A stretch of DNA of 48,333 nucleotides, from assembly GCA_944381535.1 (NCBI GenBank), contig CALWLN010000208.1, forward strand, positions 1 through 48,333. The letters run 5' to 3'. The number at the start of each line of letters is the position of its first letter. Position 1 is the first letter of the stretch. A program made the translations under genes and the position numbers. Source of the DNA: an uncultured Lachnospiraceae bacterium. Lineage in GTDB: Bacteria > Bacillota > Clostridia > Lachnospirales > Lachnospiraceae. The notes below the pieces were generated by a model, which did not search any database, had not been told where the DNA came from, and saw nothing but the letters and a program-made list of their open reading frames with translations. This document shows positions 3,347 through 29,521 of the stretch, in pieces.

Positions 3347-4066
3347 CTAACGGATTTTTTCCAGCTTTAAATCGCTGATAATATATTTATATTCCGCCAT
3401 CTCCAAAAACTTATGGGCCTTGAGATTATAAAGATACTCCTCTCCGCCCTGCCAGCTAAACACCTCCACCGGCTTATCAATATGCTCTTCCAACGTCTTT
3501 CCCGCATGGACTATCTCCCGCTCCATCACTTCATCCGGCGTCTCCCGGCTGATGCGATAATGGGAACCTGTATGACAGCAGATCACATGCTTCTTAGAAA
3601 TCTCCCGTATCTCCTGCCAGGAAAGAGCGATCCTGTCATCCGGATAGACATTCGTTCCCTTTACCATCAATTCATGACTCTCCGCATATCTGCGCTGTTC
3701 CTTTATAGGCACATCCGGGAAAAAGGCGGGAATAAAATACCATCCGGTAAAGTCATATTTCTCCAGCAACGGTGTCAGAGTGTCATACTGATTGCGGAAG
3801 CCGTCGTAGAGAGCCGGAATCAGGCCGGGCTTTTCCTTTGGCCATTTCTTCGTCTCAAAAAAAACATCCAGGTCTTCCGGCTTCACCGGTGAAAAATGCT
3901 TGCTGTAATAAGCAATTTCCCTCTCGAACTGCTCCCGGTTCAGGCTGTTGGTATTGTGATAGTTAATCACCCGGATATAGGCATAGTTCACCAGATTGCG
4001 AAACATTTCCAGGGTGCGCTTGTCACGGCACACCGCTTTCGAAAACGACTGTATATCGAATTGCAT
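3347..4066 (-). CDS. Divergent NodB-like polysaccharide deacetylase family protein (copy 1)
   Basis: The 239-residue protein has the NodB-type layout but altered active-site motifs. The canonical TFDDG block corresponds to ALYDG (residues 85-89), so the first, catalytic-base Asp is Tyr while the metal Asp is kept. The metal-binding HxxxH block is intact as HTGSH (165-169). There is no signal peptide or membrane segment, so it is probably cytosolic. It is homologous end to end to the protein at 24454-25176; both share DKR.LEMF near residue 20, GFRNQYD after motif 1, CCHTG, and the C-terminus LKLEKIR. I chose the ATG at 4066, which overlaps the MATE stop as TAATG with GAGGAGG just upstream, over an upstream in-frame ATG at 4090 lying inside the MATE gene. 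That overlap implies translational coupling. The substrate is unknown, and loss of the base may mean a changed or absent deacetylase activity. Confidence 0.75.
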   Translation of the reverse strand: MQFDIQSFSKAVCRDKRTLEMFRNLVNYAYIRVINYHNTNSLNREQFEREIAYYSKHFSPVKPEDLDVFFETKKWPKEKPGLIPALYDGFRNQYDTLTPLLEKYDFTGWYFIPAFFPDVPIKEQRRYAESHELMVKGTNVYPDDRIALSWQEIREISKKHVICCHTGSHYRISRETPDEVMEREIVHAGKTLEEHIDKPVEVFSWQGGEEYLYNLKAHKFLEMAEYKYIISDLKLEKIR

Positions 4067-5871
4067 TACAAATCCTCCTCCCGCATCCATTCGCCGGTTC
4101 CAAAATCCGTATCTTCAATTCCCCGACGATAGGGAATCACCGTAGTCTTATCGCTCTCTTCGTCGTAGTCAAAACGGAAGCATTTCTCCGCCAGCACATT
4201 CATGGCCGGCGCAGCGGCAGGATAATCCGCCTCCTTCTCCTTATCCTTAAGATAAGTATCGTTCTGCTCGTAAAGATCCGTCAGGATCAGACCTCCCACA
4301 GCCAGGAACAGCCCCATATCCTCATCGTCCTCCGCCGGAGTGTAAGCCCCTTCATAATCCGTAGTAAAATCCTCCATGCAGACATAGGCAGGTATTCCCT
4401 GTGTAGCCTCGTCGCAGGCGTTGCAATACTGAATCAACTCGTTGTAGGCCGTCAAATCATCCGCCCCCAACTGGCCCAATATCTCATCCAGTGTTTCATG
4501 GGCTTTCTTTCCGGAGAAATACTGGAGCCTGGAATAGTTCCGCACCCGGAGCCGCTTCCGGACACTACGGAAAAGTACAAGTCCGATCAATACGGCCACT
4601 CCCTCCGTTATAATGGTGGAGAACCAGATGCCGTCCAGACCAAAGACCGTGCCCATCCCCACCACAAAAATAATCGGAAAGGCAATGCTTCGCGCAACGG
4701 AAAAGACAATGGCATGATTTCCCTCATTTACCGCCTGGAAATAAGTGGACAGCAGAACGTTTAAGGCCGCCAGCAGATAGGAGAAAAATGTAATCCGCAA
4801 AGCCGGGATGGCCATGGTCAGGAAAGTCTCCTCCCCGTCCACAAAGAGGGCGATAAGCTGGGCTGGATAAAACTCTCCGATCACAATGAGGACCACTGCC
4901 ACCAGGAGGGAATAGCCCAGCGCATAGCGCAGGATTTTATTGGCACGTTTATATCTTCCGGAGCCAATGTTGACGCTGACCAGGGGCTGCATGGCATTGG
5001 AAACGCCTTGGAGCGCATTAAGCACAATAATAGTCACGCTTCCTATGACGCCGTATACCGCCACCGCCGTTTCTCCTGACAGTTTCAGCAGCATCAGGTT
5101 AAAGACCAGCAGCGTGATGGAGGACGCCAGTTCCATGATCAGGCTGGAAAACCCCAGCCTGCAGACCCGAAACATGTAGCGCGCCCCCGTGGTTAGCCCG
5201 TAAAAACGCATATTGGATGAGGGACGCCGGGTGCTGATCAAAAGGAAAACCACCGCTACCGCAATGGATACGGAGGTTGCAAGCGATGCCCCCGCAATGC
5301 CCCACTTGAATACAACCAGAAATAAAATATCCAGTACAATATTCAGCCCGCTGCCGATAAAGGTCGCAATCATAGCAAGCTTCGGCGCGTTGTCGTTTCT
5401 CAAAAAGCTGCACAGAAAGGTTTCAAAGGAAAATACCGGCGCAAAGGCAAATACATAGAGCAGATAGTCGTAGGTTCCCTGCCTGGCAGCACCGACGCCC
5501 CCCAGAAATGTGGTCACCTGTGGCAGGAAAATAAGGCCAAATACCAAAATAGCCCCCGTAATCACCAAAAGGATGGTAAAACACGCAGTGTAAATGGCTC
5601 TGGCAATCTTTTCCTCGCCTTTTCCTATATAAATAGAGTAAAGCGTAGAGCCGCCCACTCCAAACAAATATCCAAGTCCGTATAAAATTCCCGGAATCGG
5701 CTGCGCGATTCCCAGGGATGTAATTCCCAGTTCACCCAACGTCTGCCCGACACAGATAGTGTCCACAATATAATTCAGGGAAATAAAAAGAGTTGCTGCA
5801 ATGCTTGGAAATAGATATTGTAGCAACAGGCGATGTGGGTTTCTTGTCAACAGTTCTCTGTTTGTTATCAT
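4066..5871 (-). CDS. MATE family multidrug/solute exporter with a C-terminal extra domain
   Basis: Residues 1 to about 445 are a MATE transporter with 12 hydrophobic segments, starting NRELLTRNPHRLLLQYLFPS and typical of Na+/H+-driven exporters in the membrane. At 601 residues it is about 150 longer than usual. The extension, roughly 460-601, is acidic and soluble and includes TQGIPAYVCMEDF, an AEDDEDMGLFLAVGGLIL helix and DYPAAAPAMNVLAEK. This extension is homologous to the free-standing 130-residue protein at 25163-25555, which shares GIPA, a P/A-ED-DE helix, and YP..APAM in the same order. Both are immediately followed by a divergent NodB deacetylase gene, here with a TAATG overlap. AGAGG precedes the ATG. 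A GC-rich stem-loop separates it from the upstream transporter operon. The MATE assignment is secure; the extension's function is unknown. Confidence 0.9.
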   Translation of the reverse strand: MITNRELLTRNPHRLLLQYLFPSIAATLFISLNYIVDTICVGQTLGELGITSLGIAQPIPGILYGLGYLFGVGGSTLYSIYIGKGEEKIARAIYTACFTILLVITGAILVFGLIFLPQVTTFLGGVGAARQGTYDYLLYVFAFAPVFSFETFLCSFLRNDNAPKLAMIATFIGSGLNIVLDILFLVVFKWGIAGASLATSVSIAVAVVFLLISTRRPSSNMRFYGLTTGARYMFRVCRLGFSSLIMELASSITLLVFNLMLLKLSGETAVAVYGVIGSVTIIVLNALQGVSNAMQPLVSVNIGSGRYKRANKILRYALGYSLLVAVVLIVIGEFYPAQLIALFVDGEETFLTMAIPALRITFFSYLLAALNVLLSTYFQAVNEGNHAIVFSVARSIAFPIIFVVGMGTVFGLDGIWFSTIITEGVAVLIGLVLFRSVRKRLRVRNYSRLQYFSGKKAHETLDEILGQLGADDLTAYNELIQYCNACDEATQGIPAYVCMEDFTTDYEGAYTPAEDDEDMGLFLAVGGLILTDLYEQNDTYLKDKEKEADYPAAAPAMNVLAEKCFRFDYDEESDKTTVIPYRRGIEDTDFGTGEWMREEDL

Positions 5872-7783: not shown

Positions 7784-8722
7784 TTAACCCTTCACGCTTC
7801 CCACCGTCAAGCCGGTGGCAAAATACTTCTGCAGGAAGGGATAAACCAGCATAATAGGCAGGATTGCCACAAACAACTGAGCTGCCCGGGTACTTCTGGC
7901 TGATACGAAGTTCAGCAGATTTTGGATCGCGGTACTTCCGCTCCCTCTCATACTGGCAAGATACTGCTCCGGGTTCACCACAATAGTCTGTAAGTAACTC
8001 TGCAAAGGATAATCTTCCACTCTGTTCATGAATAACATGCCGTCGAACCATGCGTTCCAGTGACCTACCATGGCAAAAAGGACGATGGTGGCTATGGAGG
8101 GAAGACAGAGGGGCAGGATTACGGACACCAGAGTCCGCACATGTCCCGCGCCGTCAATAAACGCCGCATCCTGCAGTTCCTCAGGAAGACCTCTCATATA
8201 GTTCATCAGCACCAGCATGCTGAACACTGGCACTGCGTCCGGCAGGATCAATGCCCAGATGGAACCCATGATACCGGTGGCGCGCACCACCGTGTACCAT
8301 GGCACCAGCCCGGCGCTGAACAATATGGTGATCACAAAGAACCAGGCAAATATCTTCCGGTGTTTAAACTTCCGTTCCGGCTGCGACAAAACGTAAGCTG
8401 TGGGAATCACAAGAAGCATGTTCACACTTACTCCCAGCACAACTCTCTTGACCGTCACCCAGAAGGACTGTAGGAACTGGCCGCTCTCCAGTACGAACTG
8501 ATAAGACGCCAGCGTAAAATCCTTAGGCCAGAAGCTTACCGAGTTGCTGTTTACCGCAAACTGTCCGCTTAAGGATACGGCAAACAGGTTGACAAAGGGC
8601 AACAGGCAGCTCAATGCCAGAAGTATCAGCAGGGTAATGTTGAAAACCGTAAAAATCCGGTATCCCACGCTGACCTTGATCTTGTTCTTCTTATTTTTCT
8701 TCATCTGCTTCTCCGCTCGCAT
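7784..8722 (-). CDS. Carbohydrate ABC transporter permease (LplC/YtcP type)
   Basis: The 312-residue inner-membrane protein has about six hydrophobic segments and the binding-protein-dependent transport motif ELQDAAFIDGAGHVRTLVSVILPLCLP around residues 190-215, the EAA loop that contacts the ATPase. The C-terminus LQKYFATGLTVGSVKG is typical of the MalG/LplC branch. It partners the permease encoded 12 bases upstream and the lipoprotein encoded downstream. AGGAGGTGTGAAAT leads into the chosen ATG at 8722; a later Met at residue 7 is possible. Confidence 0.92.
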   Translation of the reverse strand: MRAEKQMKKNKKNKIKVSVGYRIFTVFNITLLILLALSCLLPFVNLFAVSLSGQFAVNSNSVSFWPKDFTLASYQFVLESGQFLQSFWVTVKRVVLGVSVNMLLVIPTAYVLSQPERKFKHRKIFAWFFVITILFSAGLVPWYTVVRATGIMGSIWALILPDAVPVFSMLVLMNYMRGLPEELQDAAFIDGAGHVRTLVSVILPLCLPSIATIVLFAMVGHWNAWFDGMLFMNRVEDYPLQSYLQTIVVNPEQYLASMRGSGSTAIQNLLNFVSARSTRAAQLFVAILPIMLVYPFLQKYFATGLTVGSVKG

Positions 8723-9703: not shown

Positions 9704-9739
9704 AGCATTTCCCTTCTTTCTTAATACTTTTTTGTTCAC

Positions 9740-9894: not shown

Positions 9895-10743
9895 TCATTC
9901 TTTACCAACGCACCCACAAACCGTCATTTTCTCGATAACCAGCCTTTTCACGGCTTCCCTGCCTGCGCCGCAGTACTTCTTGGGGTCAAAGATATCCGGC
10001 TTCTCCGCCAGCACCTCTTTGACGCCGCCGCTGAAGGCGATTCTCAATTCTGTGGCAAAGTTCACCTTGCAGATACCCCGCCTGATGCTTTCCTTTACAG
10101 CCTCATCCGGCACTCCAGAGGCACCGTGGAGCACCAGAGGAATATCCACTACCTTCCGAATCGCCTCAAGACGTCCAAGATCCAGCTTTGGTTCTCCCTG
10201 ATACAGACCATGGGCCGTGCCGATGGCAACCGCCAAAGAAGAAATCCCGGTACGCTCCACGAATTCCTTCGCCTCCATGGGATCCGTATACGGGTTTCCG
10301 TCCCCTCCTTCCAGGTCATCCTCCTTACCGCCTACTTTGCCAAGTTCCGCTTCCACCGGCACTCCGGAAGGATTACAGCTGTCTGTTACCCGCTTTGTAA
10401 GGGCAATATTTTCTTCGAAGGATTCATGAGAACCATCGATCATGATGGAGGTATAACCCACCCGCAGCGCCTGCATTGCCAGTTCAAAGCTGCTTCCGTG
10501 GTCCAGATGAATGGCCACCGGAACAGACGCCTTTTCGGCTGCGGCCTTAGCATTGGCATAATAAAATTCCAGCCCGCCATATTTCACGGTAGAAGGCGTT
10601 GTCTGCAGTATCACAGGCGCTTGCGTCTCCTCCGCCGCTTCCACCACGGCCTGCACCATCTCCATATTTTCCACATTAAAAGCGCCAACGGCATAATGGC
10701 CTTCCTGCGCCTTTTTCAACATCTCTTTTGTTGTAACTAACAT
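9895..10743 (-). CDS. Class II tagatose/fructose-bisphosphate aldolase (GatY/KbaY/FbaA family)
   Basis: The 282-residue protein is a class II, zinc-dependent aldolase that would split tagatose-1,6- or fructose-1,6-bisphosphate into dihydroxyacetone phosphate and glyceraldehyde-3-phosphate. Seen: GAFNVENMEM near residue 20, HLDHGSS near 80 with the zinc His pair, the MIDGSHESFEEN loop near 103, VEAELG near 133, AVAIGTAHG near 175 and LVLHGASGV near 205 with further zinc His, and VNFATELR near 232. The length and motifs fit the GatY/KbaY group. With the AgaS-like protein (17428-18612) and the PfkB kinase (28589-29521) it could complete a tagatose-6-phosphate route. It is last in operon B. Tagatose versus fructose specificity cannot be settled here. 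Confidence 0.9.
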   Translation of the reverse strand: MLVTTKEMLKKAQEGHYAVGAFNVENMEMVQAVVEAAEETQAPVILQTTPSTVKYGGLEFYYANAKAAAEKASVPVAIHLDHGSSFELAMQALRVGYTSIMIDGSHESFEENIALTKRVTDSCNPSGVPVEAELGKVGGKEDDLEGGDGNPYTDPMEAKEFVERTGISSLAVAIGTAHGLYQGEPKLDLGRLEAIRKVVDIPLVLHGASGVPDEAVKESIRRGICKVNFATELRIAFSGGVKEVLAEKPDIFDPKKYCGAGREAVKRLVIEKMTVCGCVGKE

Positions 10744-15548: not shown

Positions 15549-16496
15549 TTACCTGACCGTCTTCCCGGCCGCGCCGTTCCTCTCTTCCTGCTCTGCCAGA
15601 AGTACCGCGCCCCACACAGGGGGCAGGGACGGCTCCTTCAGATATCCTCCGATTTCCGACACGCGCTTTTCCAGCAAAGGCAGTACGTATTTTCCCGCAT
15701 GGAACAATCCGCCGGAGTAGGAAACCGCAAAGGCCTCCCCACCCAGCCCAAGGTTTTCCGCCGTGCTGCGGATAATGAGGAACAATTCCTCCGCCGCCGT
15801 CTCATAAAGCCGGATGGCTGCCTTATCTCCGGTATCTGCCGCCGCCAGCAGAACTCGCTGCAGGGAAGCCACCTTATCCCGGAAGGGAACATAATCCTGC
15901 TCCAGCACATCCACAAGGTCCACCGGATTCTTTAAGCCGAATCGGGCAAGCATCTGCGGATACAGGGTTCCCCTTTCCGTCCTTCCGTCCGCTTCCTTAA
16001 AGAACAGTTCCATGGCGCGCCGTCCCAGCCAGTAGCAACTCCCCTCATCACTGAAGAAGGAAGACCAGCCGCCGCTTCTTGCGCTTCTTCCGTCGGCGTT
16101 CTCCCCATAGGCAATGGAGCCGGTGCCCGCCACGATATTAATTCCTGGCCTTAACTCCAGAGAACCGGCCCAGCCCACCTTGACATCATTAGCCAGTACG
16201 TACTTTCTCCCGGAAAAAAGCTTCCCGATCTCTTCTTCCAGTATGGCATCATTTTTTGTACTTTCCCCATAACAGGGAAGTCCTATGGCGGTACAAGATA
16301 CCTCACCGTGCTCTATGCCTGCCATGCGAGTAATTGTGGCAATTCCCTCCGAGAACTGTTTTACCACTTTCGAAATGCCGATTTCCCGGTAGGAACAGCC
16401 GCCCTGCGTAATGGACGCAATCTCCTTGCGGGTCTCATCTGCCAGCAGATACGCAGTTTTGGTTCCGCCGCCGTCTATCCCCAAATAATATTTCAT
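15549..16496 (-). CDS. BadF/BadG/BcrA/BcrD ATPase family sugar kinase (N-acetylglucosamine kinase-like)
   Basis: The 315-residue protein has the ASKHA kinase fold signature of the BadF group: LGIDGGGTKTAYLLAD at the N-terminus (phosphate 1 loop), NDVKVGWAG near residue 100, GTGSIAYG near 122 and GGWSSFFSDEGSCYWLGRRA near 140. Bacterial members near sugar genes are usually N-acetylhexosamine or glucosamine kinases, so it probably phosphorylates a sugar released by the neighbouring glycosidases. It is the first gene of operon B, 18 bases before the mannosidase reading frame. A long perfect inverted repeat lies between it and the GntR gene. The exact sugar is not known. Confidence 0.87.
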   Translation of the reverse strand: MKYYLGIDGGGTKTAYLLADETRKEIASITQGGCSYREIGISKVVKQFSEGIATITRMAGIEHGEVSCTAIGLPCYGESTKNDAILEEEIGKLFSGRKYVLANDVKVGWAGSLELRPGINIVAGTGSIAYGENADGRSARSGGWSSFFSDEGSCYWLGRRAMELFFKEADGRTERGTLYPQMLARFGLKNPVDLVDVLEQDYVPFRDKVASLQRVLLAAADTGDKAAIRLYETAAEELFLIIRSTAENLGLGGEAFAVSYSGGLFHAGKYVLPLLEKRVSEIGGYLKEPSLPPVWGAVLLAEQEERNGAAGKTVR

Positions 16497-16588: not shown

Positions 16589-17332
16589 TTATTTCAGCTC
16601 CACGCTGTAATGGAAGATATCTCCCCGCACCAGGCTTATACAATACTCCACAATATCCGTACCGCGGTATGTCTCTCGGATCAGGCTGATAGCCGCAGTC
16701 TTATAAGCCACCTGAAGCTTCTCCGCCTCATTCTTGGACAGATTCACAGCGCTGAAAGTCTCTATGGCGCGGTCCAGAAAAACACCGTAGCTGTTGAGAC
16801 TTTTATACAGCCCCTTCTCCTGAATCTGTTCCCCGGTAAGTTCCGGCACAAAACGCACCGGAATAAAGGACTGCTCCAGAGCATAGGGCTTCTCGTCCAC
16901 GAACCGCAACCTCTTGATCCGGAAAACCTCCTCTCCCTCCTCAAGATGCAGGGTATCCCGCACGATCACGTTGGCCGTCTGCCTTTCAAATTCCAACACG
17001 TTGGAATATTCTTTTAACCCTAAGCTCTTTAACTCCTCGCTAAAGGAGTAAAATTTATGCAGCTTTTGATCAATCGTCTTCTTCTGGACAAAAGTACCCC
17101 TTCCCTGCCTCTTAATCAGATATTTCTCATTCTGCAATTCCTCGATGGCCTTGCGGACGGTAATGCGGCTTACCCCGTAGATATCGCATATTTCCTGTTC
17201 GGAAGGAATTTTACTTCCTTCCGCCCATTTTCCGCTGAGAATATTATCCTTAATCTTTTCTTTCAGTTGAAAATACAATGCAAGAGGTATGTCCTTTCGT
17301 ATTTTTTCGATTATTACACTGTCACTCATCAT
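16589..17332 (-). CDS. GntR/HutC family transcriptional regulator
   Basis: The 247-residue protein has an N-terminal winged helix (LKEKIKDNILSGKWAEGSKIPSEQEICD to VSRITVRKAIEELQNEKYLIKRQGRGTFV, residues about 25-80) and a C-terminal UTRA ligand domain (residues about 100-245). HutC-type regulators bind phosphorylated sugars or related effectors and usually repress nearby catabolic genes. It sits alone between operon A and operon B, separated from the first by a hairpin terminator and from the second by an 18-bp inverted repeat, so it may control one or both. GGGGGAG precedes the ATG pair; the second ATG at 17329 is also possible. Confidence 0.93.
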   Translation of the reverse strand: MMSDSVIIEKIRKDIPLALYFQLKEKIKDNILSGKWAEGSKIPSEQEICDIYGVSRITVRKAIEELQNEKYLIKRQGRGTFVQKKTIDQKLHKFYSFSEELKSLGLKEYSNVLEFERQTANVIVRDTLHLEEGEEVFRIKRLRFVDEKPYALEQSFIPVRFVPELTGEQIQEKGLYKSLNSYGVFLDRAIETFSAVNLSKNEAEKLQVAYKTAAISLIRETYRGTDIVEYCISLVRGDIFHYSVELK

Positions 17333-17427: not shown

Positions 17428-18612
17428 TTACTCCTTCAATTCATAAATTACAATTCCCTTGGCCACGCGGTTTACCTCTCCTCCGGGACAGGGATTGTCG
17501 GTGGTGAAATTCCTTTCCAGAGACTTTTCCATGGACAGAAGCTGGATGAACATCAAGTCCTTGATGTAAGCTCCCATCTCTGTCCCGGCCGGAAGGCTCT
17601 CAGGTACCTGATAGACCACCTCGTAATCGACACCTTCCACGCTTCCGGCAAGGGCCTTGGGGGCTACGGTTACAATGATATTTTTCTTCTTCTCAGCCAC
17701 CATTTCCCTTGCGAAGTCAATGTCGTATTTGCTGCTATAAGCCTGATTGGACAACAAATGCAGGGTAATGGTCTCATCGTTGACCACGGTCTTTGGACCG
17801 TGACGGAAACCTGTGGGAGCGTCATAGCCTGCGTGGACATAGCCGTTGGTCAGTTCCATAGACTTTACGGCTCCCTCTCTGGCAATTCCTTTCAAAGCTC
17901 CTGTCCCCAGCCAGATAATTCTGCGGTAATCGTTGACGGCAATCTTTACAGCCATATCGTCAAGCTTCTGGAACTCCTCCTCCACGCTTGCCGCCAAAAC
18001 TTTCACATACTCCGTGTAGGTGACCATTTCCTGGTAATGGAACAGGCACCAGGTAGCTAACGCCATGCAGCTCACGCTGCTGGTCATGGCAAAGCCCAGA
18101 TCGCAGGATTTCTCCGGCATATCCAGCACCAGCGCACGGTCAGACTCATAGCCAAGTTTTGCCAGGCTGCTATCCTTATTACATACAATGATCACCTGGT
18201 ACAGTTCCTTTATCTTTTGCTGGGCGAACCGGATAGCGGCGCAGCTCTCAATGCTTTCTCCGGAACGTCCGTAGGAAATCAAAAGCGTCGGCACATCCTC
18301 ATAGGTGGCATCCGGCATGCTGACGAAGTCCGTGGTGTGAACCGTCTCGGTGTGAATCCCCATCTCGTTAGCCAGAAGATACTGCAAAGCCTCCCCCACA
18401 AAGGCGGAGGAGCCTGCCCCGGTAAATATGATTCTTATATTTCTGATGGACAAAACCTTATCCATGAATGCATGAATTTCATCCTGCCGTTTTAACAGCG
18501 TGTCCGCCAATTCGCGCCATAAAGCCGGCTGCTGGGCAATTTCCATGACCGTATGGATGGCTCTGTGTTCGTTATAATAGCTTTCCGTTCTTCCAAAATA
18601 TGTTTTTTCCAT
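17428..18612 (-). CDS. SIS-domain sugar isomerase/deaminase (AgaS-like)
   Basis: The protein is 394 residues from the ATG at 18612, chosen because AGGGAG lies about 10 bases upstream; the longer reading from 18696 starts inside the upstream dehydrogenase gene. It has two SIS domains. Seen: RIIFTGAGSSAFVGEALQYL near residue 55, LLISYGRSGESIES near 105, and a second-domain pattern IIWLGTGALKGIAREGAVKSMELTNG near 225 followed by RHGPKTVV near 268. This is the pattern of AgaS, which converts galactosamine-6-phosphate to tagatose-6-phosphate with loss of ammonia, and of related ketose/aldose isomerases. With the bisphosphate aldolase of operon B and the PfkB kinase elsewhere in the window it would give a complete tagatose pathway. 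It is last in operon A. The exact substrate is inferred. Confidence 0.85.
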   Translation of the reverse strand: MEKTYFGRTESYYNEHRAIHTVMEIAQQPALWRELADTLLKRQDEIHAFMDKVLSIRNIRIIFTGAGSSAFVGEALQYLLANEMGIHTETVHTTDFVSMPDATYEDVPTLLISYGRSGESIESCAAIRFAQQKIKELYQVIIVCNKDSSLAKLGYESDRALVLDMPEKSCDLGFAMTSSVSCMALATWCLFHYQEMVTYTEYVKVLAASVEEEFQKLDDMAVKIAVNDYRRIIWLGTGALKGIAREGAVKSMELTNGYVHAGYDAPTGFRHGPKTVVNDETITLHLLSNQAYSSKYDIDFAREMVAEKKKNIIVTVAPKALAGSVEGVDYEVVYQVPESLPAGTEMGAYIKDLMFIQLLSMEKSLERNFTTDNPCPGGEVNRVAKGIVIYELKE

Positions 18613-18625
18613 CTTCTTATTCTCC

Positions 18626-19600
18626 CTAAATTTCTGTATTGGTTGTTTTTCCTTCCAGCAGATCCACCATATGGTACGCCGACTGCATGGCAACATTGTG
18701 AATCTCCCGGTCTGCCAGACCTGCCATATGAGGGGTCAAAACCACATTTTCCAGTTCAAACAGTTCACTCTCATAGAGGGGCTCCTCCTCGTAGACATCC
18801 AGCGCCGCCCCTGCGATCCTCTGTTCCTTCAGAGCGGCGATCAAAGCCTTCGTGTCAATAATTCCGCCTCTGGAGGGATTAATGATCACGGCACTTTTCT
18901 TCATCATTCCAAGAGATTCCTCATTGATGATATGCCAGGTCTCCGGCGCCAGAGGACAAGTGGGTATCACAATGTCCGCTTCCCGGAATAGTTCCTCCCG
19001 CTCCACATAGACGGCGCCGAACTTTTCCGCCAGCTCCGGTTTTTGGCTGGTGCTGCTGACGATCAGCTTCATATCGAAGCCCATGGCCCGTCTGGCCACC
19101 GCCTGACCAATGGCGCCAAACCCGATGATCCCCAGCGTTTTCTTCGATACTGCCAGGCCCCGCTCCACGCCGTCGCACCACCGCCCCTGACGAATGACGC
19201 GGTCCCCGGCGGGAATCCGCCGCATCAGAGAGAGTATCTGTCCCCAGGCGAAATCCGCCACTGCGTCAAAATTCTGCCTCGGCACATTGCAGACGGTGAT
19301 CCCGGCCTCGTGGAAAGCCCCAAGATCCAGATGATCGCTTCCCGCACAGTTTAAGGAAACCGCCTTTAACCCCTCCGCCGCCTGCACAAAGGCTCTGCCC
19401 AGAGGAATGTCCGCGCCCATAATGATACCCGCAGGCTTCACCGGAAGTTCTTTCCAGTACGCGATCAAATCTTCTTCCGTCCAGCCCTTTCTGTCCTTTT
19501 CTGCCAGAAGCAGGGGGGTATACCCGCCCTGCTTCACGGCTTCAAAGGCTTCCGCCTCCTGTTCAAAGGAGAACGAGAGAATCAATACTTCCTTTCCCAT
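18626..19600 (-). CDS. D-isomer-specific 2-hydroxyacid dehydrogenase (operon A)
   Basis: The protein is 324 residues from the ATG at 19600, which has AAGGAG about 10 bases upstream; the GTG at 19606 is too close to that site. It is an NAD(P)-dependent dehydrogenase acting on a 2-keto or 2-hydroxy acid. Seen: the Rossmann loop LGIIGFGAIGQAVARR near residue 155, INPSRGGIIDTKAL near 235 with the catalytic Arg, LDVYEEEPL near 265 with the Glu, and LTPHMAGL near 290 with the catalytic His. Its place among a dehydratase, an SDR, a GH4 enzyme and a SIS protein suggests a sugar-acid step rather than serine biosynthesis. It ends 14 bases before the SIS start. Confidence 0.9.
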   Translation of the reverse strand: MGKEVLILSFSFEQEAEAFEAVKQGGYTPLLLAEKDRKGWTEEDLIAYWKELPVKPAGIIMGADIPLGRAFVQAAEGLKAVSLNCAGSDHLDLGAFHEAGITVCNVPRQNFDAVADFAWGQILSLMRRIPAGDRVIRQGRWCDGVERGLAVSKKTLGIIGFGAIGQAVARRAMGFDMKLIVSSTSQKPELAEKFGAVYVEREELFREADIVIPTCPLAPETWHIINEESLGMMKKSAVIINPSRGGIIDTKALIAALKEQRIAGAALDVYEEEPLYESELFELENVVLTPHMAGLADREIHNVAMQSAYHMVDLLEGKTTNTEI

Positions 19601-19614
19601 GTTCACCTTTCTCC

Positions 19615-20991
19615 TTATTTATACTGCGGCAGCACATCCTTGTACCTTGCGTAGAATTCCTCCACCAGCGCTTCGGCTATCTTCACGTCCGTAACAGCGC
19701 CGTCCAGCAGCATGGCGTCCGCCCACAGCTTCTTGTCTCCGGTAAGAGCCGCCTCCACGGTGGCGTCCACGGAAGCCAGTCGCTTGATGATGATGTCCTT
19801 CATTGGGCCGCCGAAATTGTTGATGCGCATGCTGGAGAAGCCAAGTCCTGTGGCAACGCCCGGCAGTTCCAGTACCGCATCGTCGGGGATGCCGGCAACG
19901 GCCCCGTTGTTGGGGATATTCACGGAAAATACCTTCCGCTCATCCAATATCAGGGACTTGATCATTTCCACCAGCTGCTCGTGTTCTCCGGAAGCCCGGG
20001 CAAACAGTTCCGGTTCTATCTCGCCCTCAATCTCTCCCTGAGACAGCATATTCTGATAGGTCTGCTCTCCTCTTGCAATCACGTCGTCGATGGGGAACGC
20101 ATCCACGCCCAGAGTATGGTCGTAATAAGCCCCCTGAGGGAACCGTTCCGGGAAGAATTCCACCGCATGGCGGTCCACCACAGCCGGGATTCCGCCATAG
20201 CGCTCAAACAGTTCCCAGGAGAAAGGATTGTCCATGTGGTTAGGAATCTCCTTATCCTCCAACTGGGGATTGAAGAAATTGCGCACATGGGGATGCGCCT
20301 CATTATCCTTCTTCTGCTGCTCCACAATTTTCAAAAGTTCCGGCTTCACATCCACACCGTCCACGCGGATGTCATAAAGCCAGGTCAGATGATTGAGACC
20401 CACGCCGATGGTGGTCAGGCGATTCACATCCACCCCCAGCATTTTGGAGAGGTACTTTTCCCCGTAGATCACGCCGTGGCACAGGCCCACCAGCTTCACG
20501 TTGGTGGCTCTCCTCACCGCAGTCACAATGGAGGTCATGGGGTTGGAGTAGTTGAAGAAATAAGCCTCCGGGCAGAGCCGCTCCACATCCTTCGCAATTT
20601 CGATCATGGCCGGAATCATGCGCTGGGCCCTGGCAATTCCGCCGGGCATGATGGAGTCGCCTACCGGCTGATAGATGCCGTATTTCCGCGGCATTTTCAC
20701 GTCAAATTCCCAGGCATTTCTTCCGCCCACGGCGATGGTGGTCACCACAAAGCTGGCGCCGGGTAGCAGATCGCAGCGGTCCGTGGAGGACGTAATCTTG
20801 ATGTTGTCGGCTTTTTTCTGCTCCACCATCTTTTTGGCAAGCTTCGTGATGGACTCTAAGATTACAGGGTTAATGTCACACAGGGCAATCTCCCATTCTC
20901 CCCAGCCCGACTGGATGAAATCAGCGATCAGTCCCTTGGTAAACACGGCGCTTCCCGCGCCAATCAATACGATTTTTCTTCTCTCACTCAT
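19615..20991 (-). CDS. GH4 family NAD-dependent glycosidase
   Basis: The 458-residue protein is a family 4 glycosidase, which uses NAD and a divalent metal in an oxidation/elimination mechanism. Seen: the N-terminal dinucleotide loop VLIGAGSAVFTKGL, the VGGRNAWEFDVKMPRKYGIYQPVGDS segment near residue 90, YFFNYSNPMTSIV near 145, VGLCHGV near 168 with the metal-ligand Cys, and VGLNHLTWLYDI near 197 with the metal-ligand His. The NHLTW form is the type seen in alpha-galactosidase, alpha-glucosidase and alpha-galacturonidase branches, so a non-phosphorylated alpha-linked or uronic substrate is plausible. Its start overlaps the end of the upstream gene by 8 bases, and GGAGG precedes the ATG. Confidence 0.93.
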   Translation of the reverse strand: MSERRKIVLIGAGSAVFTKGLIADFIQSGWGEWEIALCDINPVILESITKLAKKMVEQKKADNIKITSSTDRCDLLPGASFVVTTIAVGGRNAWEFDVKMPRKYGIYQPVGDSIMPGGIARAQRMIPAMIEIAKDVERLCPEAYFFNYSNPMTSIVTAVRRATNVKLVGLCHGVIYGEKYLSKMLGVDVNRLTTIGVGLNHLTWLYDIRVDGVDVKPELLKIVEQQKKDNEAHPHVRNFFNPQLEDKEIPNHMDNPFSWELFERYGGIPAVVDRHAVEFFPERFPQGAYYDHTLGVDAFPIDDVIARGEQTYQNMLSQGEIEGEIEPELFARASGEHEQLVEMIKSLILDERKVFSVNIPNNGAVAGIPDDAVLELPGVATGLGFSSMRINNFGGPMKDIIIKRLASVDATVEAALTGDKKLWADAMLLDGAVTDVKIAEALVEEFYARYKDVLPQYK

Positions 20992-21952
20992 GTTCTTTTC
21001 CTCCGTTTAATCCGGCTTCCACCAGCCGGTCGTTGCAATTTTTCAAAAATCCCTTTAATATCTCCATCTGCGTCTCGTAATCCGCAGCGTTTAACTGTTC
21101 CACCGTCTCCTGCTTCATAAACAGCTTGATGAATTTCGGTTCTCGGATGCTGAGGTCATAGCCCTCCTGGGGCTTCATGTTCTCAAACACACGGTCAAAA
21201 ATCCGCTGGTTGCTGAACCAGTCCACCTCCGCGAAAATGCCTGCCGGCATTTTCTTGTAGCTGTAGATAGCCCCGAAGTAAGCATACATCCGAATGGTAT
21301 CCTCTTTGTCGGAGAGATAATACCGGAAGCCTTCCGCATACTGGCCGAAATTATCCTTATCCTTGTAGTTGATCTCCACCTTGCTTACGTCGCCTTCCAC
21401 CTCGCGCAAGGTCTTATCGAAGGCCTCCACCAGATTTCTGGCGTCCGCCATATCCTTGAGGGTAATGTGAAAGCCCTCTTCATAGGCGGCTTCCGCAATG
21501 CCCTCCGCGGCAGCCTGTACAAACTGGCGGACAGCCGCAATCTGCTCCCCGCGCTTCATATTTGCCAAAGCCTGAAAGCTTTCGTCCGGCATAAACAGTT
21601 TAAAGTATTCCGGCTCCACACGGTTCACCTCATAGAAGAGGTTTTCCTGAATGTTCTGTTTCACCACGGCATAGCAGCTTTGGTTGTTCTGCTCGTCCAG
21701 TTCCACCATAAACCCACAGCGGGTGGTGGGAAGATAGATCAGTCCCATATGCAGGTAAAAGCCCGCTTGGGAGCGCTTGCAGGTCACCTGGCAGCGCATG
21801 CCGTACCAATGGCGTCCGATACAGTCCCTGGCATCCCGGACCGCCTTCATCTCCACCAGATCACTTTGTACCGTATTGATAGCCTCTTCCAGCACATCGC
21901 CGAACCGGTGCAGGGAGGAGAGGGCCGTTATGTCCACATGTAGCTTTTCCAT
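20984..21952 (-). CDS. Unknown protein made of two repeated domains
   Basis: The protein is 322 residues from the ATG at 21952, which overlaps the SDR stop as TGATG; the longer reading from 22003 starts within the SDR gene. I do not recognise the family. Within it, residues about 45-150 and 200-310 look like copies of one domain. Both run through a beta-rich part (AGFYLHMGLIYLPTTRCGF and IRMYAYFGAIYSYKKMPAGIF), then EPEYFKLFMPDESFQAL and EPKFIKLFMKQETVEQL, and end in an amphipathic helix (IAAVRQFVQAAAEGI and MEILKGFLKNCNDRL). There is no signal peptide or membrane segment. It is rich in Tyr, Phe and acidic residues, and the first copy has several Cys. It is flanked by an SDR and a GH4 glycosidase and translationally coupled to both, so a role in handling the same substrate is likely but unproven. 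Confidence 0.85.
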   Translation of the reverse strand: MEKLHVDITALSSLHRFGDVLEEAINTVQSDLVEMKAVRDARDCIGRHWYGMRCQVTCKRSQAGFYLHMGLIYLPTTRCGFMVELDEQNNQSCYAVVKQNIQENLFYEVNRVEPEYFKLFMPDESFQALANMKRGEQIAAVRQFVQAAAEGIAEAAYEEGFHITLKDMADARNLVEAFDKTLREVEGDVSKVEINYKDKDNFGQYAEGFRYYLSDKEDTIRMYAYFGAIYSYKKMPAGIFAEVDWFSNQRIFDRVFENMKPQEGYDLSIREPKFIKLFMKQETVEQLNAADYETQMEILKGFLKNCNDRLVEAGLNGGKEHE

Positions 21953-22743
21953 CACTTTTCCTCCTTTGCCTTCTTCCAGGGGAAATCCGGATTCTGTACG
22001 CACAGCTTGCCGCCGCTTACCTCAATGAAGGTCCCCGTCAGATAGGAGGCCTCCTCCGAAGCCAGAAACAGCACCGCGTTGGCCACATCCACAGGAGCTC
22101 CCAGCCTGTGCAGGGCGATGGCTCCCACTAGCTCGTCTCCTTTTTGCTCCACAACCCCCTGGGTCATGCCCGTCTTGATCACGCCGGGGATAAATCCGTT
22201 GACACGAATGCCATAGGGCGCCAACTCCGCTGCCAGGGTCTTGGTGAGACTGTATACCGCCGACTTACTGGCAGCATAAGCCCCGCTGCCCGCAGAGGCA
22301 ATGACCGCTGCGTAGGAGGCCGCATTGATGATAACGCCTCCCTGCTCCTTCATATACCGATACGCCTCCCTGGCACAGAGAAATACCGATTTCAGATTCA
22401 CGTTCATAACCGTCTCCCACTGGGCAACCGTCATATCGCAGACCATACACTGTGGATAAATGCCTGCGTTATTAATGAAAATGTCTATCTTTCCCCATGC
22501 CTTAGCAGCCTTGGCAAACATGTCCTCCACCGCCTGCTCATCGCTGACGTCCAGCGCGTAAGCGAGTACCTCACCGTAGGAAGCCAGTTCTTCTTTCGCC
22601 CCCTCCAGCGCCTCACCGTTCAGATCACAGATAAATACTTTCGCGCCGCTTTCCAGAAATTTCTTCGCAATGGCGAAGCCAATTCCCACCTTGGACGCCG
22701 CTCCGGTGATTCCAACCACCTTGCCGGAATAATCAAACGCCAT
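21952..22743 (-). CDS. Short-chain dehydrogenase/reductase
   Basis: The 263-residue classical SDR has the NAD(P) loop VGITGAASKVGIGFAIAKKF at the N-terminus, DLNG near 40, INNAGIYPQC near 90, catalytic Ser in INAASYAAV near 140 and the YAASK pair near 155. The C-terminal part has GVIKTGMTQG and EASYLTGTFIEVSGG. It probably oxidises or reduces a sugar or a 2-keto-3-deoxy sugar acid, given the IlvD/Edd dehydratase encoded 18 bases upstream; a 2-keto-3-deoxy-fuconate or gluconate-type dehydrogenase would fit. Its stop overlaps the start of the unknown two-domain gene by one base. Confidence 0.93.
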   Translation of the reverse strand: MAFDYSGKVVGITGAASKVGIGFAIAKKFLESGAKVFICDLNGEALEGAKEELASYGEVLAYALDVSDEQAVEDMFAKAAKAWGKIDIFINNAGIYPQCMVCDMTVAQWETVMNVNLKSVFLCAREAYRYMKEQGGVIINAASYAAVIASAGSGAYAASKSAVYSLTKTLAAELAPYGIRVNGFIPGVIKTGMTQGVVEQKGDELVGAIALHRLGAPVDVANAVLFLASEEASYLTGTFIEVSGGKLCVQNPDFPWKKAKEEK

Positions 22744-22760
22744 GTTTCTTCCCTCCTGTT

Positions 22761-24434
22761 CTATATCTCGACGACTGCGCCGCGGCTGGCGGACGCGGCC
22801 AGTTTCGAATACACTGCCAGATACCCGGTTTTGTATTTGGGCTCCGGCGCTTTCCAGTTCTTCTTTCTCTCCGCCAGGACCTCCTCCGTCACATGCAGCG
22901 TAATGGTCTTGTTCGGAATGTCGATGGTGATCTTATCCCCATCCTCAATCAGGGCGATGGGACCGCCCTCGGCAGCTTCCGGTGATATATGTCCCACAAA
23001 GCAGCCGTTGTTGGTGCCGGAGAAACGGCCATCGGTAATCAGCGCCGTACACTCCGCCAATCCCATGCCGTAGAGATACTTCATGGCCTTGTACATCTCC
23101 CGCATGCCCGGGCCACCCTTGGGTCCCTCGTAACGGATCACCACCACGCTCTGGGGCTGAATCTCTCCCGCCAATATGGCCCGCTCCGCATCCTCCTCGC
23201 AGTCAAATACCCGGGCTGAACCGGTGAAGTACCGTATGTTCTCCTTGATGGCGGAGGGCTTCGTCACACAGCCTTCGGAGGCCAGGTTCCCGAACAGCAC
23301 GGCGATTCCGCCGAAGGCCGAGAAAGGCTCCTCCATGGTCTTAATAACCTCCCGATTCACTCTAGCGCCGGAAACCTCAGCAAGATTCTCCTTCAAGGTC
23401 TTCCCGGTCACCGTCAGAACTTCCGTATTTAACAGGGGCTCAATCTCCTTCATTACCTGAGGAATCCCCCCTGCCAGGTAAAAGTCCTCCATATTGTACC
23501 GGGAAGAGGGGTTTACCTTAGCCACCAGGGGTGTGGTCTCACTTAAACGCTGGAATTTCTCCATCATCTTCTCGCTGGAAATGCCGAGTTCCCTGGCAAT
23601 GGCCGTCAGATGCAGCACTCCGTTGGTAGAACCTCCGGTGGCATTCAGCACCCGAATCGCATTTTCCATAGAAGCCTCGTTTAAAATCTGGTCCGCAGTG
23701 ATATTTTTCCGTACTAGCTCCACAATGGCTTCGCCGGTGGCAAAGGCTGCTCTGGCGCGCTCCGCGTACACCGCCGGAATCAACGCCCCCTGGGGAAGCG
23801 TAAGCCCCAAAGCTTCCGACAGACAGCACATGGTGTTGGCAGTTCCATAGAAGGAGCAGGAACCGCAGCCGGGTCCACAGGTATCCTCCATGCGGTATAA
23901 TTCCTCCGGGTCAAGCTTACCAGCATTCACCATGCCGCAGCCCTCCGAGAGACTAGTCAGATCCGCAGCTCTCCCGTCAAAAACCGGACCGCCCTGCATA
24001 GGGCCTCCCGGAAGGAGAATGGCCGGCAGTTTCAGTCTGGCCGCCGCCATCAGAAGCCCGGGCACAATCTTATCGCAGGAACCCAAAAGGACAATACCGT
24101 CCAACTGATGTGCCTGGACCATCACCTCCACATCATTGGCGATAAGATCCCTGGAGGGCAGAATAAATTTCATTCCCTCATTCCCCTGAGCCGTTCCATC
24201 ACAGGCGCCGATGACGCCAAACTCCACCGGAGTTCCCCCGGCTGCGTAAATTCCACGGCGCACGCTGTCGGCCACCGCCCGCAGATTGTAACTGCCGGGC
24301 ACCAGTTCACTCCAGGTATCGGCAATCCCGATGATAGGCTTCTCCAGATCCTTGTCCGAGAAGCCCATGGACTTGTACACGCCCCGGTTAAAGCAAAATT
24401 CCGGGCGCTGCAAAATTGCTTCGCTTCTTCTCAT
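22761..24434 (-). CDS. IlvD/Edd family dehydratase, probably a sugar-acid dehydratase
   Basis: The 557-residue protein has the conserved Fe-S dehydratase signatures. Seen: FNRGVYKSMGFSDKDL near residue 18, GACDGTAQGNEGMKF near 77, LLGSCDKIVPG near 115 with one cluster Cys, DTCGPGCGSCSFYGTANTM near 188 with the other Cys residues, ALNATGGSTN-type NATGGSTNGVLHL near 265, and ITDGRFSGTN near 460. It removes water from a 2,3-dihydroxy acid to give a 2-keto-3-deoxy acid. IlvD of valine synthesis is the same family, but the neighbours here (SDR, D-hydroxyacid dehydrogenase, GH4) favour an aldonate such as a pentonate or hexonate. GAAGGAG precedes the ATG. Confidence 0.9.
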   Translation of the reverse strand: MRRSEAILQRPEFCFNRGVYKSMGFSDKDLEKPIIGIADTWSELVPGSYNLRAVADSVRRGIYAAGGTPVEFGVIGACDGTAQGNEGMKFILPSRDLIANDVEVMVQAHQLDGIVLLGSCDKIVPGLLMAAARLKLPAILLPGGPMQGGPVFDGRAADLTSLSEGCGMVNAGKLDPEELYRMEDTCGPGCGSCSFYGTANTMCCLSEALGLTLPQGALIPAVYAERARAAFATGEAIVELVRKNITADQILNEASMENAIRVLNATGGSTNGVLHLTAIARELGISSEKMMEKFQRLSETTPLVAKVNPSSRYNMEDFYLAGGIPQVMKEIEPLLNTEVLTVTGKTLKENLAEVSGARVNREVIKTMEEPFSAFGGIAVLFGNLASEGCVTKPSAIKENIRYFTGSARVFDCEEDAERAILAGEIQPQSVVVIRYEGPKGGPGMREMYKAMKYLYGMGLAECTALITDGRFSGTNNGCFVGHISPEAAEGGPIALIEDGDKITIDIPNKTITLHVTEEVLAERKKNWKAPEPKYKTGYLAVYSKLAASASRGAVVEI

Positions 24435-24453
24435 GATTTCTCCTTCCTGCTTT

Positions 24454-25176
24454 TTACCGTATCTTTTCCAACTTCAGATTGCCCAGCACATACTTGTACC
24501 CGGCCTCCTTTAAGTACTTCTGAGCCCGGACATTGTAGCTGTATTCCTCGGCGTACAGCCAGCAGAACACCTCCACCTCACGGCCAATCTGCTCCTCCAG
24601 CCTGCGCTTGGACAGTACGATTTCCCGCTCCATGTCCTCCTCCGGCGTATCCGGAAAAATCTGGAAATGAGTGCCCGTATGGCAACAGATTTCGTGGCGG
24701 CTGGCCACTTCCCGCACCTCGTCCCAGTTCATAGCCACCCGGCCATCCGGGTAGAGCTCCCGGTTATTCAGATCCAGTTCGTGGGCATCGCTGAAGGCCA
24801 TCTGCTCCTCCACAGGCACGTCCATATAGAAGCTTGGAATGTAAAACCAGCCAGTGAAATGATATTTATCCAAAATCGGCAGCATGACGTCGTACTGGTT
24901 CCGAAAGCCCTCAAAGACTGCCGGTATCAGACCCGGCTTCTCGTAGGGCCATTTTTTCGTCTTAAAAAAGGTATCCATATCCTTCAGCGTCACCGGGACA
25001 AAATTCTCGCTGAAATATTTGATCTCCGCCTCAATGCGGGCTGCATCCTCCGGCTCCGTGTTGTGGTAATTCACCACCCGGATGTAGGAGCCGTTCACCA
25101 GATGGGAGAACATCTCCAGATTTCGCTTGTCGCTGCATACCATAGATAAAAAATTTCTTACATCAAACTGTGCCAT
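24454..25176 (-). CDS. Divergent NodB-like polysaccharide deacetylase family protein (copy 2)
   Basis: The 240-residue protein is homologous end to end to the one at 3347-4066. The TFDDG block corresponds to AVFEG (residues 86-90), so the base Asp is Phe and the metal Asp is Glu. HTGTH (166-170) is intact. There is no secretion signal. Its start overlaps the end of the small-domain gene by 14 bases, indicating coupled translation. It ends about 20 bases before the dehydratase gene start, so it belongs to the sugar-acid operon. Cytosolic, base-lacking members might act on a small acetylated sugar with altered chemistry or as non-enzymatic sugar binders. The family is clear; activity is not. 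Confidence 0.78.
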   Translation of the reverse strand: MAQFDVRNFLSMVCSDKRNLEMFSHLVNGSYIRVVNYHNTEPEDAARIEAEIKYFSENFVPVTLKDMDTFFKTKKWPYEKPGLIPAVFEGFRNQYDVMLPILDKYHFTGWFYIPSFYMDVPVEEQMAFSDAHELDLNNRELYPDGRVAMNWDEVREVASRHEICCHTGTHFQIFPDTPEEDMEREIVLSKRRLEEQIGREVEVFCWLYAEEYSYNVRAQKYLKEAGYKYVLGNLKLEKIR

Positions 25177-25555
25177 CGCCGTCGCCCTCCTTGATCAATT
25201 CAAAATAGGGAAGCACCTTCCCATCCTCGCTCATCTGAAAAAATGTGGAGGCCATGGCTCCCATGGCCGGAGCGATAGGAGGATAGGGCCCCAACTCTTC
25301 CGGGCCCTTTTCCGAAAAAATCCTGGTGTATAAAAGAGCGCCGATGGCCATCATGTATTTCAGTTCCTGATCCTCCGGGGCGCATTCATACGTTATCTCC
25401 CGGTCATCCGCAGGCTGGGTCAGATCCGAAAGACCGATCACCGCCGGTATTCCTTCCGTCTCATTTTTCCTATGGGCGCACTCTTCCAGAATTCTATGAT
25501 ACGCTTCCAGATTTTCAGAGGTTAATTCTTTCAGAATATCAGATATATGCTCCAT
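25163..25555 (-). CDS. Small unknown domain protein, free-standing homologue of the MATE C-terminal extension
   Basis: The 130-residue acidic protein has no signal peptide or membrane helix and I do not recognise a named family. The order of features is an N-terminal helix with NLEAYHRILEECAHRK, then TEGIPAVIGLSDL near 33-46, a helix PEDQELKYMMAIGALLYTRIF near 75-95, and YPPIAPAMGAMASTFF near 105. The same features in the same order form the last 140 residues of the MATE protein at 4066-5871. In both places the next gene is a divergent NodB deacetylase, here overlapping by 14 bases. That repeated linkage suggests the two work as a complex or act on the same compound. It is the first gene of operon A. 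AAGGAGGAAG precedes the ATG. Confidence 0.85.
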   Translation of the reverse strand: MEHISDILKELTSENLEAYHRILEECAHRKNETEGIPAVIGLSDLTQPADDREITYECAPEDQELKYMMAIGALLYTRIFSEKGPEELGPYPPIAPAMGAMASTFFQMSEDGKVLPYFELIKEGDGDGTV

Positions 25556-25621
25556 TTTCTTCCTCCTTATGTTTATTCATAGACTCTTGACAAATCAGCC
25601 TATATCATCTTCGTTTCCTAT

Positions 25622-25657
25622 ATGCTGACTTACCTTTTTCTTTATGTCAGCATTATA
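25622..25657 (-). promoter_or_regulatory. Probable promoter and operator of operon A
   Basis: On the minus strand a TATAAT (25652-25657) lies about 100 bases before the small-domain gene. Just downstream and overlapping it by two bases, ATGCTGAC (25622-25629) and GTCAGCAT (25646-25653) form an exact 8-bp inverted repeat whose centres are 24 bases apart. A -35 box is not clear. The position suits an operator overlapping the start of transcription. Confidence 0.5.
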
Positions 25658-25678
25658 ACATATCATTATGATTAATTC

Positions 25679-28588: not shown

Positions 28589-29521
28589 TTACCTCCTTCT
28601 TTTCACTTGCACTTGCGGATAAATAGCTTTATAATCCGCCTTCCTGAAATATCCCGTTTCCCGGCACAGAGCGCTGGCCGTGGCAATGGCCCCGGCGGAA
28701 TGCAGCATTTCTTCTTCCTTAAGCCCCCGGCGGATGGCCATAGCCAGCCCCGCCAGCATGGCGTCCCCGCAGCCCACCGTATTAACGGTCTCTACCTTGG
28801 GAATAACGCTTTTCCATATGCCATTTTCCGAGAACAGCAAGGCCCCATCGCCTCCTAAGGAAATTACCACATATCGAATGCCTTGATTCACAAGTTGCGT
28901 TCCGGCCTCCAGAAGGTCTTCCTCCCGCTCCATTTTCATGCCGGTAAGCTGAAAAATTTCATCCTGATTGGGTTTGATCAGCAGGGGCTTTGCCTGAACG
29001 GATTCCTTAAGCAGACTCCCACTGGTATCCAGCAGCACCGGAACTTCCTTTTCCGCGGCTTTTTCCATCATATAGCGATACATATCCGCATCGATTCCCC
29101 GGGGTACGCTTCCGGATATGGTTACCACCTCCGCCTCTGTCAGCAGAGCCTCGTACTTCTCTTTCATTCTGGCTACGCTCTCTTGGGATATGGCCGGGCC
29201 CTCCTCCAGAAATTCCGTCTGGCTTCCGGCAACCGTATCGAAAATATTGATACAGGTACGGCTCTCTTCCGGTATCGAGACAAAATCCGCCGTGATTCCT
29301 TCCTTCTTGGCCAAAGCTTGAATCAGCATCCCGGTGTAGCCCCCAGCAAAGCCGGTGGCCACCGCCTTTTCATCGGCCTGGGAAATAATTCTTGCCACAT
29401 TCAGCCCTTTTCCGCCGGCGGTATAAGCCGTCTTCTTCACACGGTTCACCTGACCCACCCGCAAGTTTTCCACCTCATAGCGCTTATCGATTGCCGCATT
29501 CAAGGTTACTGTCAGTATCAT
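28589..29521 (-). CDS. PfkB family sugar-phosphate kinase (1-phosphofructokinase/tagatose-6-phosphate kinase type)
   Basis: The 310-residue protein has the PfkB pattern: [15 protein letters not shown] at the N-terminus, [12 protein letters not shown] near 35, [15 protein letters not shown] near 135, [12 protein letters not shown] near 180 and [14 protein letters not shown] near 247 with the catalytic Asp. The N-terminal TLNAAID form is that of the LacC/FruK branch. Tagatose-6-phosphate would fit the AgaS-like and aldolase proteins elsewhere in the window, although fructose-1-phosphate cannot be excluded. It is the first gene of a three-gene operon ahead of mhpF and mhpE, an unusual pairing. 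GAAAGGAGG precedes the ATG, and an IclR-type operator lies about 25 bases before it. Confidence 0.9.

Follow-up and report, generated by a model that had tools for sequence, protein, structure and literature searches.

A putative unit of a MATE transporter, a small acidic domain and a NodB-like protein with an altered active site in a rare catabolic island

What would place a small unnamed protein domain beside a NodB-like protein twice in one genome, and once fuse that domain to a MATE transporter? The question is raised by a stretch of 48,333 nucleotides from an uncultured Lachnospiraceae bacterium (contig CALWLN010000208.1, assembly GCA_944381535.1; the whole stretch is called the window below). 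An earlier note, made from the letters of the window, had claimed that the C-terminus of the MATE protein is homologous to a free 130-residue protein, and that the same NodB-like protein is encoded next to each, overlapping its neighbor. Both homologies hold: residues 459-589 of the fusion protein and the free protein are 30% identical over 134 columns (68.9 bits, E 6e-19, in a single BLASTP comparison), and the NodB-like proteins share 55% identity over 240 residues. Both pairs of genes also overlap, the second by 14 bases. The overlap in the first pair is probably not the 25 bases that the longest open reading frame (ORF) would give, since the likely start of its NodB gene is an inner ATG after GGAGGAGG, leaving a 1-base overlap (TAATG). 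Coordinates are collected in Table 1.

The genome itself (4.3 Mb in 241 contigs) holds two NodB copies at E <= 0.01 and two confident domain copies; a third domain match, with an E value of 0.69 and an internal stop, was treated as noise. A NodB scan of a genome collection, which reaches close relatives only because two short peptides seed it, gave four loci in three genomes: L007 and L009 in G776, a single isolate labeled Lachnospiraceae, L008 in G777, labeled likewise, and L010 in G778, labeled Oscillospiraceae. A host-animal origin of these relatives is hinted at by record names alone. Six domain copies are now known in four genomes, and in all six the domain is encoded directly upstream (5') of this type of NodB gene, the two genes overlapping by 14 bases at one extreme and standing 55 bases apart at the other. 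The adjacency that the earlier note proposed to check in other genomes is therefore there, in a count that favors it, because all outside domain copies were located via NodB. Profile searches that started from the domain, in 391 genomes of the class, 400 of G778's family and 29 of G777's genus, gave no full-length copy without NodB and no new positive genome either; the full-length copies in these sets were the already known ones only, and the domain is rare. Three weak partial profile matches in other genomes (L012-L014, E 0.0025-0.0089) were not taken as domain copies. The distribution is very patchy, with one positive among six genomes of the genus. No relative was found on viral contigs in scans seeded from short peptides, and no domain match on plasmids at E 0.1.

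Further afield, a plasmid of Arthrobacter sp. ERGS1:01 encodes a NodB protein with 35% identity (E 6e-46); there were four other plasmid NodB matches, and the one inspected, in an E. coli record, is a canonical TFDDG protein. The Arthrobacter NodB gene is overlapped by 8 bases by that of a 95-residue protein, possibly a shortened version of the domain. Its match to the domain is weak (8.6 bits, with none of 5000 shuffles scoring as high; hhalign probability 48% over 23 columns; E 0.11 among all ORFs searched).

Each of the four genomes has one domain copy with an adjoining MATE gene, four of the six copies in all. The window and G776 have MATE and domain fused, and G777 and G778 encode them separately; the domain of G778 is preceded by a further NodB gene, the first of two, which lies between MATE and domain. 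The MATE part of the window protein scores far above the PF01554 cut-off of 24.9 bits, and its best solved relatives are chains 4lz6 and 5c6o of BH2163. In a tree of 30 of the 50 MATE matches from the four genomes, the four from the islands group as a single clade (100/99). MATE proteins have 12 membrane spans; a crude hydropathy scan of this one gave 9, with positive residues following the last. Positive residues beside membrane spans tend to lie on the cytosolic side, and if this positive-inside rule holds here the fused domain would be on the cytosolic side.

The conserved order, the near or overlapping genes, the presence of a MATE by a pair in four genomes and the common clade of these MATEs support the prediction that MATE, domain and NodB-like protein form a linked unit. 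This bears out part of the earlier proposal of a functional pair tied to an exporter, which falls short for the two of six pairs, and for Arthrobacter, where MATE is missing: beside the Arthrobacter NodB gene no MATE match was found, and an MFS gene is located some 6 kb from it. It could be supposed instead that the neighbors merely travel together as an accessory catabolic island, the domain-NodB pair having no functional connection to the MATE. The very patchy distribution (one of six genomes of the genus) and the pairs that lack an adjacent MATE are in keeping with such co-travel, but the fusions found in two genomes, the adjacency seen in all four and the single clade of the MATEs speak against it, and we regard it as very unlikely.

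The alignment of the six domain copies (A2) has 14 invariant columns, including I36, D44 and T46 of the GIPA region and residues of YP..A.AM. All six copies are acidic, with net charges of -13 to -28. Pfam offered no convincing family, NCBIfam nothing for the free copy, and the solved structures no good match (best E 0.098). A resemblance to the N-terminus of Dyp-type peroxidases was rejected, as it was matched by one of the six members only, at E 0.0085 and below the cut-off.

The NodB-like proteins depart from known deacetylases in a consistent way. In excerpts of PMC5855634 and PMC10967932, PgaB-type members of the CE4 family are described as circularly permuted, and the former gives motif 1 as TFDD, with the first Asp as base and the second as metal ligand. 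All eight of the NodB-like proteins have the motif order NYH, [FY][ED]G[FYW]R[NT]xxD, HTxxH; NYH stands N-terminal to motif 1, and by motif order the layout is the permuted, PgaB-like (NodB2) one. TFDDG occurs in none of them: the position of the catalytic base is Phe or Tyr in all eight, and the second Asp of motif 1 is Glu in six. HTxxH, motif 2, is intact throughout. Motif 3, RxPY, is absent from seven of the eight, and the sole match, in the second NodB of G778 (N2), sits before motif 1 and not at motif 3. Read against the published motifs, the base is lost and the predicted metal-triad positions are retained as Glu/Asp-His-His. The nearest outside proteins (L006, and L022-L028, which are the seven matches beyond the own genome from 378 genomes) are of the TFDDG type in eight of eight cases.

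Family models place these proteins near CE4. PF01522 gives copies 1 and 2 of the window 30.4 and 41 bits against a cut-off of 23.1, and the Arthrobacter protein has no PF01522 match at E 0.01. The NCBIfam model for PgaB gives 25.4 and 12 bits for the two window copies, far under its cut-off of 321.9. Among solved structures the PgaB de-N-acetylases come closest (E 9e-6 to 5e-4), with 4u10 at the top (E 9e-6), and no PuuE chain appeared at E <= 1 in the same search. By eye, the protein starts show no signal peptide. The NodB tree is long-branched and mostly unresolved, and therefore we do not use it to trace how the two copies arose. A canonical deacetylase was rejected, motif 1 lacking its base in all eight. 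A decaying pseudogene was rejected as well, because the altered site is kept across distant genomes and the ratio of nonsynonymous to synonymous change (dN/dS) is low where measurable: 0.060 for NodB copy 2, 0.042 for domain copy 1 and 0.205 for domain copy 2, synonymous changes being saturated in the remaining two of five comparisons. The earlier description of the NodB protein as degenerate is thus misleading.

A low dN/dS fits an enzyme and a binding protein equally and does not decide between them. The NodB-like protein might be a pseudo-enzyme that binds a sugar or metal without catalysis and acts through its small partner as a gate or sensor for the MATE. Loss of the base Asp in eight of eight, absence of RxPY as motif 3 and fusion of the domain to the pump in two genomes all suit such a role. 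A binding-only role becomes a serious rival because a CE4 protein lacking the base, ECU11_0510, is reported as inactive in an excerpt of PMC5855634. Retention of the metal-triad positions in all eight argues the other way, and we consider this role possible but doubtful.

Does the genomic setting favor one of these roles? In the window the trio of MATE, domain and NodB sits within about 28 kb of catabolic genes, an island that the earlier note had not connected with the pair. The order is FAH, IclR, PfkB, acetaldehyde dehydrogenase (ADA), 4-hydroxy-2-oxovalerate aldolase (HOA), an AraC-like gene (named by eye), domain, NodB, IlvD and SDR; then an unnamed protein of 320 residues, GH4, 2-hydroxyacid dehydrogenase, an AgaS-like SIS protein, GntR and a kinase resembling those for N-acetylglucosamine (GlcNAc) and N-acetylmuramic acid (MurNAc); then GH38, GH116, a GatY-like aldolase, an ABC importer, the MATE-domain fusion and NodB. 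Most of the set recurs in G777 as 20 genes between ribosomal-protein-like and sensor-kinase-like genes (the flanks named by eye). The GH4 protein is matched at 78% identity in G777, 73% in G778 and 44% in Arthrobacter, and the 2-hydroxyacid dehydrogenase at 71%, 55% and 28%, respectively. The BcrAD-type kinase is matched in G776, G777 and G778, the SIS protein in G777 and G778, IlvD and GatY in G776, G777 and Arthrobacter, HOA and ADA in G776 and G777, and PfkB in G777 and Arthrobacter. Gaps in the G776 set mean little, as that genome is covered by two short stretches. The ABC permeases are matched everywhere, at 20-28% identity outside G776, which is family likeness at most. The Arthrobacter NodB lies in a similar catabolic setting, with IlvD and an FAH gene and no match to HOA or ADA; no tblastn match at E 1e-5 was found there to the window SIS protein or to the BcrAD kinase, although a SIS gene is annotated. 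The unnamed 320-residue protein was found in one of 376 genomes of the class, the own one, and in the G777 and G778 islands; it has no convincing solved relative (best E 0.22).

Over about 42 kb, G778 has none of IlvD, SDR, HOA, ADA, PfkB and GatY, and a GatZ-like gene is present; it retains two NodBs, the domain, the MATE, GH4, SIS and the kinase. The trio therefore appears tied to the amino-sugar half of the island, and the IlvD branch is its less likely partner. The kinase is most like MurNAc/GlcNAc kinases, the isomerase most like the AgaS type, and the aldolase is of the tagatose type, all of which count for an amino-sugar route. The isomerase scores 365.1 bits against the AgaS model TIGR02815, whose cut-off is 529.2, and among solved structures it is matched best by AgaS-type isomerases. 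In an excerpt of PMC5583593, the use of N-acetylgalactosamine (GalNAc) is recognized by AgaS and by the deacetylase AgaA as signatures. No NagA-like gene was found in the window and nine island loci by tblastn with five NagA-type proteins of these genomes (200,784 bases, best E 0.31). As the island stretches lack a NagA-like gene and NodB is related to de-N-acetylases, the NodB pair is a candidate N-deacylase.

The explanation that we tentatively favor, while stopping short of calling it probable, is that MATE, domain and NodB make up one module of a rare island that imports and degrades a glycoside of an N-acylated, galactosamine-like sugar. The importer and GH4 would bring in the glycoside and cleave it in the cytosol, and the kinase, the AgaS-like isomerase, PfkB and the aldolase would turn the amino sugar into triose phosphates. 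The island otherwise lacks a cytosolic N-deacylase, or a related amide or ester hydrolase, and the NodB-like protein, together with its small acidic partner, would fill that place. It would use a metal held by Glu/Asp-His-His, with the lost base replaced by another residue, perhaps the family-specific Asp of the NodB signature or the partner's invariant Asp44. The MATE would export a by-product or surplus of the deacylation step, and since the partner is fused to the presumably cytosolic MATE C-terminus in two genomes, the hydrolase may be held at the pump. This catabolic setting agrees with the earlier idea of a small compound being handled and transported; which compound, and in which direction, are proposals still. 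A stronger version, in which a NodB-fold hydrolase with a rebuilt active site works only with the small acidic partner, which gives a catalytic or binding residue and is docked on or fused to the MATE as an enzyme-exporter complex in a catabolic pathway, we hold to be unlikely.

Several points weigh against the N-deacylase module. Motif 1 is without its base Asp and motif 3 without its RxPY, and the inactive ECU11_0510 (excerpt of PMC5855634) is a discouraging precedent. NagA-type deacetylases above the family cut-off are encoded elsewhere in three of the four genomes, so an island deacetylase may be unneeded. The SIS isomerase falls under the AgaS cut-off, and the amino-sugar route is incomplete in places: G778 has no PfkB or GatY match and Arthrobacter no SIS or BcrAD kinase match. 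The second pairs of the window and of G776, two of the six, have no adjoining MATE. Substrate, metal binding and protein-protein contact are all proposals drawn from sequence.

Two other roles deserve weighing. The SDR, IlvD, HOA and ADA genes (21952-28584) could, on inferred chemistry, take a 5-deoxypentose to pyruvate and acetyl-CoA. The pair might open a ring, as a lactonase or lactam hydrolase acting between SDR and IlvD and feeding HOA and ADA, for example from such a sugar. In the window, G776 and G777 a NodB gene immediately precedes IlvD and SDR, and no lactonase is present among the annotated genes, no separate search having been aimed at lactonases. The allantoinase PuuE opens a ring. 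The NodB fold includes PuuE (excerpt of PMC10967932), but PuuE as described there lacks the second His of motif 2, which these NodBs retain, and G778 keeps two NodBs and the domain over its 42 kb without IlvD, SDR, HOA or ADA; ring opening thus seems improbable to us. Alternatively, MATE and pair could serve self-protection, the imported glycoside freeing a toxic aglycone or amino sugar that NodB modifies and the MATE removes. In favor of such a role, an efflux-type, BH2163-like MATE is unusual among catabolic genes, and all four island copies belong to a single clade; however, the substrate is itself hypothetical and the Arthrobacter NodB occupies a similar setting without a MATE match, and we give this role a low probability.

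Were the N-deacylase module borne out, the known repertoire would grow by an unnamed protein domain and by a NodB subfamily whose active site is altered in a conserved way and whose role, in small-molecule catabolism instead of polysaccharide modification, is unexpected. The module would also be a rare case of a MATE pump physically tied to a metabolic enzyme, and a route to learning the cargo of a MATE. Testing may be practical, since the Arthrobacter isolate with this NodB is named and the sequence of its plasmid complete.

Table 1. Features of the window discussed in the text, with the evidence for each assignment
Feature	Coordinates	Strand	Evidence
MATE-domain fusion protein	4066-5871	-	
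MATE part (442 residues) of fusion	4546..5871	-	PF01554 121.7 bits; BH2163 relatives; island-MATE clade
Small domain copy 1, C-terminal, MATE-fused	4066..4509	-	BLASTP to copy 2 E 6e-19; profile A2 match
NodB-like copy 1 (likely start 4066; ORF from 4090)	3347..4066	-	PF01522; YDGFRNQYD, HTGSH
Free small domain protein copy 2 (130 residues)	25163..25555	-	BLASTP to copy 1; alignment A2
NodB-like copy 2	24454..25176	-	PF01522; FEGFRNQYD, HTGTH
IlvD-type dehydratase, next gene after NodB copy 2	22761..24434	-	TIGR00110 667.9 bits, cut-off 618
SDR dehydrogenase	21952..22743	-	PF13561/PF00106
Unnamed ~320-residue protein, seen in these islands only	20984..22003	-	no Pfam match
GH4 glycosidase	19615..20991	-	PF02056/PF11975
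D-2-hydroxyacid dehydrogenase	18626..19606	-	PF02826
SIS-domain isomerase, AgaS-like	17428..18696	-	TIGR02815 below cut-off; putative tagatose-6-phosphate isomerase 3odp E 1e-70
GntR regulator	16589..17332	-	PF07702/PF00392
BcrAD-type sugar kinase, GlcNAc/MurNAc kinase-like	15549..16496	-	PF01869; MurNAc/GlcNAc kinase 8zo3 E 1.8e-38
Class II tagatose/fructose-bisphosphate aldolase (GatY-like)	9895..10743	-	PRK12737 421.9 bits, cut-off 383
Solute-binding protein	5970-7643	-	PF01547
ABC permeases	7784-8722, 8735-9739	-	PF00528 (7784-8722 match below cut-off)
4-Hydroxy-2-oxovalerate aldolase (HOA)	26702-27715	-	TIGR03217 507 bits, cut-off 286
Acylating acetaldehyde dehydrogenase (ADA)	27712-28584	-	TIGR03215 447 bits, cut-off 282
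PfkB hexose kinase	28589..29521	-	TIGR03168 341.7 bits, cut-off 216

Some other features of these stretches may be recorded here. The GH116-type glycosidase is split into two ORFs that differ in frame, one for the N-terminal part (12012-12632) and one for the catalytic part (10762-12057), which means either a broken gene or an assembly error. A 356-residue protein at 1350-2420, presumably uroporphyrinogen-decarboxylase-like by eye, has no Pfam or NCBIfam match at E 0.001, and an ORF of a PD-(D/E)XK transposase family lies beyond the island at 42754-43248. In Arthrobacter, a small protein between the PfkB and SIS genes (L020, 4161-4475) is tautomerase-like by eye, with no Pfam match.

How, finally, does this locus compare with known systems? 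No paper on such a cluster or fusion turned up in our searches of open-licence papers. Like clusters for GalNAc (Aga), the window has an AgaS-like isomerase, a GlcNAc-type kinase, PfkB and a tagatose-type aldolase; unlike them, its island has an ABC importer and GH4, no AgaA/NagA-like gene in the island stretches, an extra branch of IlvD, SDR, HOA and ADA, and the MATE, the NodB-like pair and the unnamed 320-residue protein. The island transporter is a MATE by sequence, as are the multidrug exporters of the DinF/VmrA side, but it carries or adjoins an unnamed acidic domain and belongs to a clade of its own among the 30 MATEs of the four genomes. With PuuE, the metal-independent allantoinase, the NodB-like proteins share the NodB fold and an altered motif 1 (excerpt of PMC10967932), and differ in keeping the second His of motif 2 that PuuE has lost and in finding no PuuE chain at E <= 1.

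The closest likeness is to the PgaB/IcaB-type NodB2 de-N-acetylases of CE4, with which the NodB-like proteins share the permuted motif order beginning with NYH, HTxxH, and a best solved match in PgaB 4u10. They differ in having Phe or Tyr for the base Asp, mostly Glu for the second Asp, no RxPY as motif 3 and scores far under the PgaB cut-off, as well as in their lack, by eye, of an export signal and their location in a catabolic island. As two CE4 motif tests and the PgaB cut-off failed, we do not file them as CE4 deacetylases; judged by its motifs and matches, the protein most resembles a NodB2 protein of the PgaB type that has moved into catabolism.

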